Both the position numbers and the translations under genes were made by a program. A stretch of 64,000 nucleotides of DNA from a virus. The notes under the pieces were generated by a model that made no database searches, had not been told where the DNA came from, and was given only the letters and a program-made list of their open reading frames with translations. Location: the IMG/VR virus record IMGVR_UViG_3300042900_000531, positions 22,199-86,198 of that record; one strand, 5' to 3'. Positions within the stretch are counted from its first letter, which is position 1; every line of letters starts with the position of its first letter. This document shows, in pieces, positions 7,051 through 50,774 of the stretch.

Positions 7051-7200
7051 CTACTCGGAAATATCTTCTATTTCTGGATGTGGTTCTAAACAAGGACCAC
7101 TAAATGCCCAGTACCTAATTAGGTCATGCGGAGTGTTAATCTTTGTCTTTAATAGTTTTACTGCTCTGACATAATCGAGATCAAACTCTACTTTTTTCAT
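7051..7200 (-). CDS. Small acidic protein, 49 aa
   Basis: A short minus-strand frame from ATG at 7200 with AGGA eight bases upstream, ending in TAG at 7051. The product has a basic helical N-terminus and an acidic end (HPEIEDISE). Not recognised. It starts at the divergence point between the leftward virion-like block and the rightward recA operon, so its promoter must overlap the rightward leader. Confidence 0.6.
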   Translation of the reverse strand: MKKVEFDLDYVRAVKLLKTKINTPHDLIRYWAFSGPCLEPHPEIEDISE

Positions 7201-7203
7201 GTG

Positions 7204-7232
7204 TTGTTATTCCTGTGCTTCTATGCTATATT
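7204..7232 (+). promoter_or_regulatory. Candidate sigma70-like promoter for the recA operon
   Basis: TTGTTA at 7204-7209 and TATATT at 7227-7232 with a 17-base spacer, about 20 bases before the ATG at 7252. The mRNA leader would be only about 13 nt, so translation would be near-leaderless, which actinobacterial ribosomes tolerate. Confidence 0.35.
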
Positions 7233-39605: not shown

Positions 39606-39893
39606 ATGTATCACCCTTCATGGTTCGATGCAGCGGCATGTAAAAATCAAACTGATTTATTCTTTCCGCTTTATAACGAACGCCCTCAAGCTAGAGTTAA
39701 ACGAGAAGCAAAAGCTTTGACCATTTGTTCTCAATGCCCAGTAGCCACTCAGTGCAGAGCTTATGCTCGTGACAACCTTGAGTACGGCATATGGGGTGGC
39801 GAAACAGAAGAACAACGTGTAAAACTAGGTTATTTTCCTTATGGCAATGCCAAAAGAAAACCTAAAAGAATTATCAATAAGGATGGAATATGA
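39606..39893 (+). CDS. WhiB-like Fe-S regulator 2, 95 aa
   Basis: W6-F..A-A-A-C12, then C41-x2-C44-x5-C50, the E-Y-G-I-W-G-G turn and a basic C-terminus with Lys/Arg. Closer to canonical host WhiB (including the D-x-F-F-P segment) than WhiB 1, so it was probably acquired separately. Predicted [4Fe-4S] transcription factor acting with the host sigma factor. Confidence 0.94.
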   Translation: MYHPSWFDAAACKNQTDLFFPLYNERPQARVKREAKALTICSQCPVATQCRAYARDNLEYGIWGGETEEQRVKLGYFPYGNAKRKPKRIINKDGI

Positions 39894-43294: not shown

Positions 43295-43371
43295 ACGGGC
43301 GTATCCCCTCACTCTTATAAAGTGTAGAAAGGGTAGTTGGTGGCACGCGGGTTCAATTCCCGTCGCCCGTA
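43295..43371 (+). tRNA. tRNA-like element of 77 nt with non-standard core
   Basis: The ends are those of a tRNA: perfect seven-pair acceptor ACGGGCG/CGCCCGT and T-arm GCGGG-TTCAATT-CCCGT. The 45 bases between do not give a normal D-arm and anticodon arm; the best hairpin is CACT-CTTATAA-AGTG (anticodon would be TAT). A degenerate tRNA, an unusual tRNA or a tRNA mimic are all possible. Confidence 0.5.
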
Positions 43372-46359: not shown

Positions 46360-48012
46360 ATGGACCAAATAGATAATATTACTTATATGAATGTTAAGTT
46401 GGAAGACTTAAATTACTTCTGGACTAAATCCGGAGTTCCATGCTTTATGGCAAACAGACCTAACATTGAAGAAGAAATTGAATTTCTTGGTTTCAATATT
46501 TACTACCTGATTTGCAATGTTGCTACTGACCGCAAAGTCGAAACTAATGTTTACGACAAAGGCATTACAACCAAAAACGTTTCTTACGTAACTGATCTTT
46601 CTACTAAGATTGTTAAGGTTGTTAACAACTTTGTTGGAAGAACTGTTTCTGAAATTGTTGATGAAGACTTGTATGACTTTGAAGCTACTCGTGAAACAGC
46701 TGAGTATAGTCTTCCAGCAATTCCTCGGGTTATCATCGATAAACTAGACGAGTTCTTTAGACTCGTTCACACTCAACATGGTACTGAGTCAATTGTTCTT
46801 TTGACATTTGATCCTCAGCATGAAGGTACTTCTCAGGGTTGGGGCGTTCTTGTCCCAGACCAAGTAAACACTTCTGTTCATTGCAAGTATGATGCAGATA
46901 GTATCGTAGATCAAAAGCCAGAAGATGTTTTGATTGTTGGTTCTGTTCACAGTCATCCTGACATGGCTGCATATGCATCTGGCACAGATCATGCAGACCA
47001 AGCAGACTTCGATGGCATTCATATTACTTATGGATGGCAAAAGTCTGTCAACAATGGCGCAACTCAATATCACATTGAGATGCAAATGGCTGGTCACACT
47101 TACACCCTTAAACCAGAAGATGTATTTGAAGATTATGTTTTCACAAAAGAACCCGATCCTGAAGTCGTAGGATGGACTGCTAAAGTAAAAAAAGCACTCC
47201 CCCCTATAGCGGGGGGTTCGGTTACTCAGGTGGCACAGGCGTCTACAGCGCAGGCTACAACGCAGGCACAGACTCTACCGCAGGCCTTTACTCCTCTTGG
47301 TATTCGTAACGGAGATTCTCGACTTCAAGAGTATCCAGACCCTAAGGACGATGAACCTTATCTTGTTATTGGTGAAGTAGATTCTGCTGGATCTGAATGC
47401 CCATCATGTCAAGCTGAAGTTCTTGCTTATGTCCCTAAGAGTTTTTATTGCGACACTTGCGATTTATGCTTTGCCCTTATGTCAGACTCTTATGGTGAGA
47501 TAATTGACAACGCTAAAAAGTATTTAACTGACAGAAAATTTGATTCTAATATAACTTATTATCTTTGGACTAAAGATGCTCAAGATCAAGATTTGCTTAT
47601 GCGAATTAAAGAAGTAGATTATAACGATGATGATAGCTCATTGCATACATCATTGCTGACTACTAATTCTGGTCCAACTTTAGAAGTTCTTGATGGTTAC
47701 TTCTATGAAGGATTTGACGAAACAAGAACAGTTTGTTGTGATGTTCATTTGTACACAGTTGAAAAATGCACTTGTGAAAAAACTGTCTATTACGATGATG
47801 TAATTGAATTCGATCAAAGTCATCCATACAATGTGTATGATAATAAAGCTGCTTGTGTTGATTGCGAATTTTATTATTCTCGCAACTGCAAACCTTATTT
47901 AAATTCAATTGTTAATTTTGCAAAAAACAAACAAAAGATTGAAACCCCTATTGGTGAATGTAAAGATTTTACTCTTTATGAACTCAGCAATACTATGTCT
48001 AGTTACGATTAA
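46360..48012 (+). CDS. JAMM/JAB metallopeptidase with zinc ribbons (PRTRC-A-like), 550 aa
   Basis: N-terminal domain (1-120) unknown. JAMM motif is complete: E143 (G-T-E-S-I-V-L-L), then H197-S-H199-P-x6-S207-x2-D210. JAB peptidases cut isopeptide bonds or process the Ubl C-terminus using Zn2+. An Ala/Gln/Thr linker (about 283-315) leads to a ribbon C347-P-S-C350...C364-D-T-C367 and a Cys-rich C-terminus. Codons 277-278 sit in a slippery A-run followed by a hairpin, so a 316-aa form without zinc ribbons may also be made. Between the E2-like and E1-like genes. Confidence 0.88.
   Translation: MDQIDNITYMNVKLEDLNYFWTKSGVPCFMANRPNIEEEIEFLGFNIYYLICNVATDRKVETNVYDKGITTKNVSYVTDLSTKIVKVVNNFVGRTVSEIVDEDLYDFEATRETAEYSLPAIPRVIIDKLDEFFRLVHTQHGTESIVLLTFDPQHEGTSQGWGVLVPDQVNTSVHCKYDADSIVDQKPEDVLIVGSVHSHPDMAAYASGTDHADQADFDGIHITYGWQKSVNNGATQYHIEMQMAGHTYTLKPEDVFEDYVFTKEPDPEVVGWTAKVKKALPPIAGGSVTQVAQASTAQATTQAQTLPQAFTPLGIRNGDSRLQEYPDPKDDEPYLVIGEVDSAGSECPSCQAEVLAYVPKSFYCDTCDLCFALMSDSYGEIIDNAKKYLTDRKFDSNITYYLWTKDAQDQDLLMRIKEVDYNDDDSSLHTSLLTTNSGPTLEVLDGYFYEGFDETRTVCCDVHLYTVEKCTCEKTVYYDDVIEFDQSHPYNVYDNKAACVDCEFYYSRNCKPYLNSIVNFAKNKQKIETPIGECKDFTLYELSNTMSSYD
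47187..47216 (+). promoter_or_regulatory. Candidate -1 ribosomal frameshift signal in the JAMM gene
   Basis: In-frame heptamer A_AAA_AAA (47187-47193), spacer GCACT, then CCCCCC-TATAGC-GGGGGG (47199-47216). The geometry matches dnaX-type -1 frameshifting. After slipping, 38 codons rich in Gly/Ser/Tyr lead to TAA at 47307-47309, giving a product of about 316 aa. Confidence 0.5.
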
Positions 48013-48022
48013 GGAATAATTT

Positions 48023-48772
48023 ATGGAACCTAAAAGAGTAGTTTTAGTTGGTGCCGGTGGCATTGGCACCTGGTTAGCAGAAGGAGTTGTTAGACTTCTT
48101 GAATGGAAATATCCTGGATCTGCTTTGATAATCGTTGATGGTGACAGCTATGAGCAAAGAAACTTAGAGCGTCAATCATTCACTCAAGTCGGCAACAAAG
48201 CTTCAGTTAAAGCTCTTGAGCTGACTAAGCAATTTAATCAGACTCTTGTTATACCTATTCCTAAATGGGTTGTTTCTGATGAACATCCTGAAACAGATGA
48301 AGAGTCTAGCAAGATTAGAGCAACTAAGTTGCTCGCTGAAGGCGATATCGTTCTTGCTGTTGTTGATAACTTTTCTGCTCGTAAAATTTTATTTGACGCA
48401 GCTTCAAAACTTAACAACGTAGATGTTTTTACTGGTGGAAACGATGATAACCTTTTTGGTAGCATCTATCATTATCGTCGTCGTGATGGCGTAGACGTTA
48501 CTGCTCATCCAGTAGAAACACACCCAGAATACCAAAATCCACCTGATCGCAATCCAGGTGAAATGTCTTGTCAAGAACGAGCCGAAGTAGAAGGTGGCAC
48601 CCAAATACTTGCCACCAATATGGCTGTTGCTGCAATGATTCTTGGTCGTATTCAATATACTATTGTTTCCGAACAAAATCCAGAACAGTCAGAGATCTAC
48701 TTTGATCTAGGTCTTGGCATGTCCCAACCATATAATCGTATGGTCAATCAACAGCAACCCGCTTACCTATAA
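48023..48772 (+). CDS. ThiF/E1-like activating enzyme, 249 aa
   Basis: Rossmann nucleotide site V-L-V-G-A-G-G-I-G at residues 6-14, acidic end of strand 2 (V-D-G-D-S-Y), N-L-E-R-Q (Arg finger-type residues of E1/ThiF/MoeB), and V-V-D-N-F-S-A-R (the metal/ATP Asp). C183 in G-E-M-S-C-Q is a candidate catalytic cysteine. E1 proteins adenylate the Ubl C-terminus, then carry it as a thioester. Short, without ubiquitin-fold or rhodanese domains, as in PRTRC ThiF. Eleven bases after the JAMM gene and 22 before the Ubl gene. Confidence 0.9.
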   Translation: MEPKRVVLVGAGGIGTWLAEGVVRLLEWKYPGSALIIVDGDSYEQRNLERQSFTQVGNKASVKALELTKQFNQTLVIPIPKWVVSDEHPETDEESSKIRATKLLAEGDIVLAVVDNFSARKILFDAASKLNNVDVFTGGNDDNLFGSIYHYRRRDGVDVTAHPVETHPEYQNPPDRNPGEMSCQERAEVEGGTQILATNMAVAAMILGRIQYTIVSEQNPEQSEIYFDLGLGMSQPYNRMVNQQQPAYL

Positions 48773-48793
48773 TTAATAAACGGAGATAATAAC

Positions 48794-49045
48794 ATGGAAA
48801 TGAATTCCAACCAAACAAACACCAGCACAGGCGAAGGCGTAGCCAACGTTCGTTACGGTGTATACAACCAACCAGCACCAGTCTCAGGAAAGACTGTTGG
48901 ACAGGTCCGTGAGCAGTTCAGCAAGCTCTGGGGCATTAGCTCAGATGCTATTGCTTACAAGGGCAAAGACAAGCTTGACGAGAACTATGTCATTCAGTCA
49001 AACGACAACGTTGAGTTCCATCGCCGTGCAGGCGAAAAGGGCTAA
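48794..49045 (+). CDS. Ubiquitin-like beta-grasp modifier (PRTRC-C-like), 83 aa
   Basis: ACGGAGATAATAAC before the ATG. After a 17-residue polar tail, residues 18-80 fit a beta-grasp: strand (ANVRYGVY), strand (APVSGKT), helix (VGQVREQFSKLWG), strands (AIAYKG, VIQSNDNVEFHRR). The C-terminus is ...R-R-A-G-E-K-G, close to the conserved end of PRTRC system protein C as I recall it. A single terminal Gly rather than GG; either the Gly is used directly or the JAMM enzyme trims EKG to expose an earlier Gly. A 13-pair terminator directly follows. Confidence 0.8.
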   Translation: MEMNSNQTNTSTGEGVANVRYGVYNQPAPVSGKTVGQVREQFSKLWGISSDAIAYKGKDKLDENYVIQSNDNVEFHRRAGEKG

Positions 49046-49064
49046 CACCTTTCCTAACATGATC

Positions 49065-49136
49065 GTGGGGGGGACTATTAAACTACTTGATAGTTTATTA
49101 GACTCTTAACAGAGTAGTCCCCCCCACTATTTTTTA
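49065..49136 (+). terminator. Very strong terminator after the Ubl gene
   Basis: GTGGGGGGGACTA (49065-49077) pairs perfectly with TAGTCCCCCCCAC (49115-49127), then TATTTTTT. It separates the Ubl genes from the AAA+ gene and may set the Ubl:ATPase ratio by partial readthrough. Confidence 0.85.
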
Positions 49137-49175
49137 TAAAGCCATTAGATTATTATTTTGATACCTGGAGTACAT

Positions 49176-50774
49176 ATGCTCTTTCAGCAAATCCAATTGG
49201 GAATTCCCGCTATTTGGATTAAAACAACCGACCCTTACAGACTCGAAGAAAATATTACATCCTTTGATAAGCGTACATACTTTACAATTTCAAAAGATGG
49301 ATTTTCTCAAAACATAAACTTCCAATGGAAACCAGTTCTTGTTTCTATACCTGCTCCTGAAGACGGTGCTCCACCAATAATCAAGACAACTACTGATTTG
49401 TCATTGTCTTTTGACTACATGCTTAATTCTTCTGCTGTTAAAGATCTTCCTAAATCTTTTATTTACAATTTAATTGGAGATCCTAAAGCATTTGCTAATG
49501 AATTTTCAGGCTTAGTCTCTTCCCTGCATTCTGATTACAGAAAATCTTTTAAATCTGATGACATTTCTTTAATGCCACTTCAGCTCATAGTCTTGAGCGC
49601 TTCTGATGTTCCAGAAGAAATTGCGCATTTATTTTATGTTCATGAAGATATGTACCCCACTCTTCAAGAGCTAAACGAAATTCTCAACCACATACATACT
49701 TCTACTAATGGCGAAGTATTAGATGCTGCTAAAGCCAAAGAAATTTCCAATGCTGGACTTGGTCTTACAGAATCTAAATTTATCAATCTCTGTCTTATGT
49801 CAGTACTTGAACATGGAACAATTAGTTCTTCTTACATCTATGAAGCTAAAATGGCTAATGTTAAGAAAAACGGAATCCTTGAAATAATAAAACCTAAGAT
49901 TACTTTTGATCAAATTGGTGGCCTTGATAATATTAAAGATGTTATTATGCGCAATCTTTACTTCTGGAATAATCCTGAAGAAGCTGAGAAGTTTGGCATT
50001 CAGCCTATTCGTCGCATGCTAACTGTTGGCATTCCCGGCACTGGTAAGTCTGCTATATGTGAGGCAACTGCTAGTGCTCTTGGTCTTGACCTTGCCCGAA
50101 CTGGTGTAAGTCAAGTCATGAATTCTTTTATCGGTCAATCAGAACAAAACATGCGTACAGTCTTTCAGCAAATTAAAGTCATGGCTCCGCTTTGCGTATG
50201 GATTGACGAGTTTGGTCGAGATATGTCTGGTGGTCAAAGCTCGTCTCAAGTAGACGGTGGCACTACCGATCGTGTTCATGGTGAATTTCTTACTGGACTT
50301 CAAGAACTTCCTAACGATGTTTTCTTAATGTGTGCTGCTAACCAGCTAAACCATCTTAAACCAGAAATGCTTCGTGCAGAACGCTTCGATAAGATCTTCT
50401 TTGTTGGCTTGCCATCATTTGAAGAACGAATTGAAATTATTAAGATCTATCTTCCTGAAGACACTTATGATTACTCTGCTATAGCTCAAGCAACCAAGTA
50501 CTTTACTGGTGCAGAAATTAAATCATTAGTTAAAGAAACAAAATTCAATGTTGTTTCTGCTGAACACCGCATGCTCAATACTGCTGATGTAGTAAAAGCT
50601 GCTCCATTTATGCGTAATATTCTTTGGAATAAAGAACGCGAAATGATTAGAGACTTATATCGTTATGCTTATGACAACTGGGACTGGGCTTCTAGCTTCC
50701 AGTATAATGACATAGATGATATACTTGGTAAACAAAAATCTTCTCAAGCCCCTTCTTGGGACTTGAAAGTCTAA
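49176..50774 (+). CDS. Ycf46-type AAA+ ATPase, 532 aa
   Basis: ATG 49176 chosen for CTGGAGTACAT; TTG 49158 is possible. The N-terminal domain (1-190) and the linker L-T-E-S...K-K-N-G-I-L-E-I-I-K-P...F-D-Q-I-G-G-L-D-N-I-K-D match the Ycf46 family. The AAA module has Walker A G285-I-P-G-T-G-K291-S, Walker B V-W-I-D344-E345-F and R-A-E-R-F-D. It lacks the coiled coil/OB N-domain and a C-terminal HbYX tail of proteasomal ATPases, so docking to the phage proteasome-like protein is not shown. Predicted protein-remodelling ATPase. It lies between the Ubl operon and two further E2-like genes. Confidence 0.88.
   Translation: MLFQQIQLGIPAIWIKTTDPYRLEENITSFDKRTYFTISKDGFSQNINFQWKPVLVSIPAPEDGAPPIIKTTTDLSLSFDYMLNSSAVKDLPKSFIYNLIGDPKAFANEFSGLVSSLHSDYRKSFKSDDISLMPLQLIVLSASDVPEEIAHLFYVHEDMYPTLQELNEILNHIHTSTNGEVLDAAKAKEISNAGLGLTESKFINLCLMSVLEHGTISSSYIYEAKMANVKKNGILEIIKPKITFDQIGGLDNIKDVIMRNLYFWNNPEEAEKFGIQPIRRMLTVGIPGTGKSAICEATASALGLDLARTGVSQVMNSFIGQSEQNMRTVFQQIKVMAPLCVWIDEFGRDMSGGQSSSQVDGGTTDRVHGEFLTGLQELPNDVFLMCAANQLNHLKPEMLRAERFDKIFFVGLPSFEERIEIIKIYLPEDTYDYSAIAQATKYFTGAEIKSLVKETKFNVVSAEHRMLNTADVVKAAPFMRNILWNKEREMIRDLYRYAYDNWDWASSFQYNDIDDILGKQKSSQAPSWDLKV

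Follow-up and report, generated by a model that had tools for sequence, protein, structure and literature searches.

The RNA element at positions 43295 to 43371 (plus strand) of the window, by which we mean the whole 64,000-nucleotide stretch of viral DNA analyzed here, is real and conserved and is a member of a large phage RNA family. Judging from the sequences, we consider it most likely, with a probability of roughly 0.8, that the members of this family are working decoder tRNAs of a second chain topology and that the window's element is a tRNA-Ile(UAU). In standard tRNA numbering, the proposed chain would run through 1-7, 8-9, a bulged base, 23-25, 26, 27-31, 32-38, 39-43, and a linker (5 bases here) and then continue with 10-12, U13, A14, R15, the D loop with G18G19-N20, a short tail, 48, the T arm at 49-65, and 66-73. 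The D arm would become a long-range helix enclosing the anticodon arm, and since the helices and the usual tertiary partners (8:14, 15:48, 19:56, and 54:58) are kept in the sequence, the same L shape could form. We refer to this form as rewired.

The ends of the 77-nt element are those of an ordinary tRNA. The acceptor 5' strand (positions 1-7, 43295-43301) forms 7/7 pairs with 43364-43370, all seven of which covary across 95 members, and the acceptor 3' strand with the A73 discriminator (43364-43371) is followed by CAA, CCA not being encoded. The T arm (GCGGG-TTCAATT-CCCGT, 43347-43363), assigned by pairing and covariation, has 5/5 stem pairs (one G-U) and the loop TTCAATT. The length of 77 nt, the seven-pair acceptor, and the canonical T arm described in the initial annotation are thus borne out by the letters, and its characterization of a tRNA-like RNA with a perfect acceptor and T arm but a nonstandard core was right.

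The core reads UA-U-CCC-CU-[CACU CUUAUAA AGUG]-U-AGAAA-GGG-UA-GUUGGU-GGCA-C, with the anticodon arm in brackets. It begins with U8, A9, and a bulged U (43302-43304), U8 lying opposite A14 and A9 opposite U13; TA occupied positions 8-9 in 87 of the 88 distinct matches listed from a scan that left the 5' half free. The D-stem strand CCC, equivalent to positions 23-25, is placed directly after the acceptor (43305-43307) and pairs with 43331-43333. C26 and U27 (43308-43309) follow, with a U27.U43 mismatch here where most Arg members are paired. The anticodon arm CACU-CUUAUAA-AGUG (43310-43324) has four pairs, all covarying, together with U33, A37, and the anticodon UAU at 43316-43318 (Ile, AUA). 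U43 and the linker AGAAA (43325-43330) bridge this arm to the second D-stem strand GGG, the equivalent of 10-12, which with U13 A14 fills 43331-43335; covariation supports this strand, and U13 A14 also occurs in the relatives found by BLAST. The last part of the core holds the D-loop sequence G15 UU G18 G19 U20, a four-base tail, and C48 (43336-43346), including the R15:Y48 Levitt pair. AGUUGGU has the letters of a D loop (A14 R15 U U G18 G19 U20) but lies on the 3' side of the anticodon arm; no D hairpin separates position 9 from this arm, and covariation puts the D-stem strands on either side of the arm. Where the initial annotation had seen no normal D or anticodon arm, then, the D hairpin is indeed missing, whereas the anticodon arm is normal, carries UAU, and is merely displaced toward the 5' side.

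ARAGORN, which had been proposed as a check, called five canonical tRNAs in the window and no standard cloverleaf at 43295-43371. The Rfam tRNA model gave the element 32.2 bits (gathering threshold, 29) versus 60 to 70 bits for the four canonical tRNAs listed. The fold of the single sequence was unremarkable (z = -1.44) and uninformative; the proof of structure is therefore comparative and comes from 95 distinct members and their covariation.

We searched for relatives by BLAST, pattern scans, and covariance models. BLAST with the element returned 43 records of Streptomyces phages plus a single other record, and a shorter query added Rhodococcus phage Peregrin and the crAss-like phage cr130_1. 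Only 2 of the 43 Streptomyces records, both of them EGole, carried an annotation beneath the element, as tRNA-Leu. Listed matches in mycobacteriophages and Propionibacterium covered the T-arm/acceptor part alone (query bases 61-85 only in the listed mycobacteriophage matches) and were dropped. Three pattern scans of 2.9 million viral contigs found 5, 77, and at least 119 stretches. The pattern with a free 5' half, run on genome contigs of 84,980 species, found nine stretches, all in metagenome-assembled genomes, eight of which also had a covariance-model hit. With strict filters and 12 candidates scored per listed genome, covariance model R1 matched the seed genome alone in each of two bacterial phyla (395 and 392 genomes), and BLAST of the element against plasmids found none. 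On this sampling, the rewired-tRNA family is essentially viral.

Rewired members parse in Streptomyces phages Yaboi and Coruscant, Agrobacterium phage Atu_ph04, Salmonella phage SSBI34, Stenotrophomonas phage SOVA965, and Limnohabitans phage DC31. The crAss-like phage tikkala has a rewired Tyr at the stricter descriptor setting and a rewired Ile(GAU) at the looser one, plus a canonical Ile(UAU), and Alishewanella phage Slicko01 has a variant that is annotated as tRNA-Ser and that the descriptor fails to parse. The family occurs in phages whose hosts are Actinomycetota, Bacteroidota, and Proteobacteria. The window holds a WhiB gene (39606-39893), which suggests that its phage has an actinobacterial host. 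A scan for the acceptor and T arm only gave many unexplained candidates. Separately, Jay2Jay (87505-87581) and LilMartin (84563-84639) share a conserved 77-nt acceptor/T-arm element whose core is unlike the rewired one and which is called by neither ARAGORN nor the rewired descriptor.

Next, we evaluated the proposed pairs in an Ile alignment (A1) of 95 distinct members, including the window's, with rows filtered for 8/12 acceptor plus T pairs; 90 members were 77 nt long, 4 were 78 nt, and 1 was 76 nt. Across the 95 rows, 98.0% of the proposed pair cells were standard (shuffled, 69.9%), there were 623 double changes versus 183 when shuffled, and sliding the partners abolished the covariation signal. 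Compensatory changes were present in the acceptor, D-stem, anticodon, and T helices. The first D-stem pair was CG in 58 rows, AU in 29, UA in 6, GC in 1, and unpaired in 1, and R15:Y48 covaried as well (AU in 63, GC in 27, GU in 1, and other in 4). The core is thus kept and covaries across relatives, a check that had been suggested at the outset. RNAalifold, unaided, recovered the acceptor, anticodon, and T helices plus 3/5 D-stem pairs. The 8:14 and 19:56 contacts were invariant in the 95 rows, partly through pattern choice: the search patterns fixed U13 A14 and G18 G19, and some of them also GAAA or TA, so that invariance was partly imposed. GAAA was fixed in two of them, the 77-stretch scan and the free-5'-half scan; where the linker was left free, in a scan with strand x = CGG and a free anticodon, NGAAA was found in 41 of 43 distinct Ile elements among the matches listed.

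The scan with a free 5' half yielded 88 distinct full-flank matches in the list: all three D-stem pairs were Watson-Crick in 85, the acceptor had 7/7 pairs in 74 and 6 pairs in 11, and the 4-bp anticodon stem was complete in 79, with one match (L114) broken. In that locus, the broken copy (7137-7210, plus strand) consists of a rewired Ile 3' half abutting another tRNA-like 3' end, and a complete rewired Ile(UAU) begins at 7084. Eight extra model hits (81 to 90 bits, one duplicating a training row) were taken without a pairing filter, and all eight pair, under a covariance model that itself favors pairing; four of them (L091, L038, L109, and L147) have CUC/GAG or CCG/CGG in place of D-stem pairs that never varied among the training rows. 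An Arg alignment (A2; 60 of 62 rows, two with a 2-nt bulge being left out) was 98.8% paired, with 394 double changes versus 106 when shuffled. D-stem variation is undersampled among the Arg members, since the patterns that yielded most of them fixed a D-stem strand; their other stems covary freely.

Weaker covariance-model hits were rewired tRNAs with other anticodons. Applied to all loci collected, a topology descriptor gave 227 distinct hits, of which 224 were Ile, Arg, or Tyr and three, with other anticodons (TAG, ATG, and CTA), were judged to be chance. An earlier version of the descriptor had 0 hits in 2.9 Mb of reversed sequence and the final version 3 in 5.8 Mb, which is close to the count put down to chance in real sequence. 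The rewired set comprised 149 Ile (UAU, 87; GAU, 44; CAU, 18), 62 Arg (UCU, 46; CCU, 7; ACG, 5; UCG, 2; CCG, 2), and 13 Tyr, all GUA. ARAGORN calls overlapped 4 of the 224 distinct elements. T54 T55 C56 A58 occurred in 222/224 members, the descriptor having required [AT]TC[AG][AT].

Scans with the anticodon freed returned the same isotypes. With x = CGG and the anticodon free except for U33 and A37, there were at least 120 stretches, and 116 of the 120 listed parse; among the matches listed, every x = CGG element in the parsed stretches was Ile (UAU or CAU) or Arg (UCU, CCU, or CCG), and the four that did not parse were two further Ile/Arg relatives and two chance matches. G37 in place of A37 gave one stretch, a chance match. 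A scan with strand CAC gave 19 stretches, 18 of which parse as Ile or Arg, while the remaining one (L247) reads as an Ile relative. The Tyr scan gave 21 stretches, of which 10 parse as real and 11 look like chance. At an E value of 0.01, BLAST with a Tyr member found none in phages, even though one is present in bajarodcaudo virus 1 and in tikkala. In what was scanned, the rewired form is restricted to Ile, Arg, and Tyr; isotypes with other spacings could have been missed (compare Tyr).

The numbering is fixed by the Arg members, in which a single base (26) precedes a 5-bp anticodon stem; 27:43 is U.U in 130/149 Ile and paired in 53/60 Arg rows. Tyr members keep the class II long variable arm, its strands placed in the linker and the tail, flanking the D strand. 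The best helix of this arm has at least 4 pairs in 13/13 members, with compensatory changes (CTCC/GGAG, CTGC/GCAG, and CCGC/GCGG), and a Watson-Crick 15:48 pair is missing in most Tyr rows. Locus L371 (8183-8420, minus strand) carries a tandem of three rewired Arg tRNAs (UCU, CCU, and CCG) spaced 7 to 8 nt apart. LilMartin (85682-85756) and Slicko01 (L476, about 1485-1563) share an Arg(UCU) subtype with TTGGCC / GGYGCA strands, which the descriptor misses and which perhaps has a 5-bp D stem with a bulged G. Jay2Jay (95284-95355) and LilMartin (92687-92758) also have a conserved 72-nt tRNA-like element with a CTGTAAA stretch (possibly Tyr GUA) and no ARAGORN call; LilMartin lacks a Tyr tRNA call.

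Then we compared the bases with known identity determinants. In Escherichia coli, A20 is described as the main arginine determinant for ArgRS, and D20 (a modified U) is described as an Ile determinant (PMC9976931). The base after G18G19 (position 20) is A in 59/62 Arg and 2/149 Ile members and U in 141/149 Ile members, and these bases agree with what ArgRS and IleRS identity predicts. In Streptomyces phage Yaboi, an Arg(CCU) built on an Ile-type framework (U.U mismatch and GAAA linker) has A at 20. A73 is found in 149/149 Ile and 13/13 Tyr members, and the Arg discriminator is varied (A, 20; G, 20; T, 19; C, 3). Against the match stand position 38, which is variable (A, C, or T), and C4:G69, an E. 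coli Ile minor determinant that is present in only 39/95 Ile members.

We also counted whole tRNA sets in 23 phage records (LilMartin without its last 2.5 kb; some contigs being fragments). In six records (Peregrin, G009, G013, G020, G022, and G016), the canonical Ile was of one type and the rewired Ile exclusively of the other; G016 was placed by a model hit and its sequence, and the other five were placed by the descriptor. G009 adds a rewired Arg(ACG) and G013 a rewired Arg(CCU), each absent from the record's own canonical set. Several records had no canonical Ile at all, including G006, with 38 canonical tRNAs, and the 86-kb record of the window's phage, in which the element is the sole Ile tRNA seen. 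Shuffles of distinct sets revealed mutual avoidance between the rewired and canonical forms of an anticodon, which co-occur more rarely than in the shuffles: in the 27 loci with one rewired and at least one canonical Ile, an anticodon was shared in 4 versus 9.9 expected (P = 0.0017), and in 16 loci for Arg it was shared in 0 versus 5.2 expected (P = 0.0006), P values that are rough because the loci are related. By single anticodon, avoidance was clear for UAU, GAU, and UCU; it did not reach significance for CCU, ACG, and GUA, which had few cases, or for CAU, whose canonical calls include Met. Furthermore, the Gly(GCC)-Ala(UGC) slot of two sister phages, with both flanks aligning, holds a canonical Arg(UCU) in Jay2Jay and a rewired one in LilMartin. 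The latter has a D-stem mismatch or bulge, for which reason the descriptor missed it, and was found by the model and the acceptor/T-arm scan. A codon-demand prediction (UAU where AUA is common) failed: AUA usage was 0.307 in UAU loci versus 0.336 in GAU loci (P = 0.11), and GAU loci used AUC less (P = 0.004), the reverse of what demand would predict.

These tRNA sets bear on the alternative that the elements do not decode and instead mimic tRNA-Ile, -Arg, and -Tyr as decoys or regulators, soaking up host enzymes (anticodon nucleases, synthetases, or modifying enzymes). In its favor, there are phage tRNAs that counter tRNA-cleaving defenses (reported in PMC11555353 and PMC12409363), only three isotypes turned up in what was scanned, the core is strongly conserved, and the same anticodon is held in both forms by 6 of the 23 records (Jay2Jay, LilMartin, G001, G002, G003, and G017). 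A decoy would have no evident reason, however, to avoid the canonical tRNA of its own anticodon or to occupy that tRNA's slot, and the anticodons span wobble sets (UAU, GAU, and CAU; UCU, CCU, UCG, ACG, and CCG). We therefore regard this alternative as unlikely. The mimic or anticodon-nuclease decoy raised in the initial annotation is less likely than a working tRNA, given the anticodon complementarity, the identity bases, and the slot exchange.

A second alternative is a permuted gene, whose transcript would be cut and rejoined into an ordinary cloverleaf, as happens with permuted tRNA genes in other systems. Nearly all the cloverleaf pieces are indeed present in the order 1-9, 23-44, 10-20, 48-73. 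Three cuts and as many joins would nevertheless be needed to swap two internal segments, all the helices already pair in the RNA as encoded, and the NGAAA linker recurs in nearly all of the listed Ile elements from the scan that left it free; we hold this reading to be very improbable. The permuted tRNA genes of algae and archaea, in which the 3' half is encoded upstream of the 5' half and which are processed to an ordinary cloverleaf, share with the rewired form an unusual order of gene segments and differ in that the rewired element has its acceptor strands at both ends and its rearrangement inside.

A decayed tRNA gene or attachment-site remnant, also suggested at first, could account for the low Rfam score and the one broken copy in L114, and phage attachment sites do contain T-arm/acceptor ends of tRNA genes, but conservation and covariation refute it, with 98% pairing across 95 distinct members and compensatory changes in all four helices, and we consider it excluded for practical purposes. 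A tmRNA is dismissed, since it would be several hundred nucleotides long with a tag reading frame and the 77-nt element scores 17.5 bits with the Rfam tmRNA model, below 47; this match and the plastid Rfam matches were rejected because a shared T arm yields such artifacts.

The letters of the L-shape contacts are kept despite the changed chain order, and the simplest account is that the family consists of working tRNAs. The links 9 to 23, 44 to 10, and 20 to 48 that the rewiring creates look sterically possible, because the canonical fold already packs position 9 against the 12:23 pair and has 44 stacked close to 10:25. The rewired RNA would be expected to undergo RNase P and CCA maturation, to be charged by the host IleRS, ArgRS, or TyrRS, and to decode phage codons in a three-dimensional shape predicted from its contacts. 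A bolder extension, which we find possible rather than probable, is that it is a second tRNA architecture for Ile, Arg, and Tyr that is interchangeable with the cloverleaf, goes unseen by host enzymes that grip the D hairpin, and sustains phage translation after host tRNA destruction. By conjecture, the changed fold could serve escape from tRNA-cleaving defenses.

The rewired form shares with canonical tRNA (Rfam RF00005) the acceptor, T arm, anticodon arm, A73, U33, U8, A14, R15:Y48, G18G19, and the length of 77 and differs in lacking a D hairpin, in its D-stem strands being swapped round the anticodon arm, and in its chain order. Plant RNA virus tRNA-like structures reach a tRNA shape through another chain topology and can be charged; they are 3' ends of viral genomes, whereas the rewired elements are free tRNA genes in an isotype set. 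Minimal tRNAs without a D or T arm (mites and others), as described in PMC2797822, are likewise functional without a cloverleaf but are short and have lost an arm, whereas the rewired form keeps both D-stem strands. Phage tRNAs that resist or outlast tRNA-cleaving defenses are known (reported in PMC11555353, PMC12409363, and PMC10264068), among them T5 tRNA-Lys against PARIS AriB and a phage tRNA-Tyr against retron-Eco7 (PMC12409363 and PMC11555353). Those, too, are phage borne and replace attacked host tRNAs; in the descriptions given by the latter two reports, what sets them apart from host tRNAs is substitutions or strong expression and not the order of the chain. A search of open PMC text found no paper on a swapped-strand tRNA topology; a prior description is possible in bioRxiv or the subscription literature, which lay outside its scope.

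The cloverleaf arm order is treated as universal, and tRNA gene finders depend on it. If the reading as a second architecture is true, the universal cloverleaf is a historical choice and not a ribosome requirement, and the family would show the L shape, rather than the cloverleaf, to be what tRNA function needs. It would open to test which host enzymes (synthetases, RNase P, D-loop modifiers, and tRNA nucleases) read topology, would revise the tRNA counts of many phages, and would offer a new scaffold for orthogonal tRNAs.

Finally, the element had been placed just ahead of a ubiquitin-like cassette. That cassette does lie downstream, but 3 kb away: window positions 46360-50774 hold, in a row, Prok-JAB (46360-48012), a ThiF-type E1 (ThiF, 48023-48772), an 83-aa ubiquitin-like candidate with no Pfam match, and an AAA ATPase (49158-50774). 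Among 312 loci, only L003, a close relative, had a JAB homologue; the loci being short, this is a weak test, and nothing ties the element to the cassette. Elsewhere among the loci, a GOLLD RNA (280.7 bits) lies at L068:7644-8058 (minus strand), inside a cluster of phage tRNAs, some of them rewired. At 148 nt (L239:1897-2044, minus strand) and 191 nt (L339:6388-6578, plus strand), two Rfam tRNA matches may contain introns or insertions.
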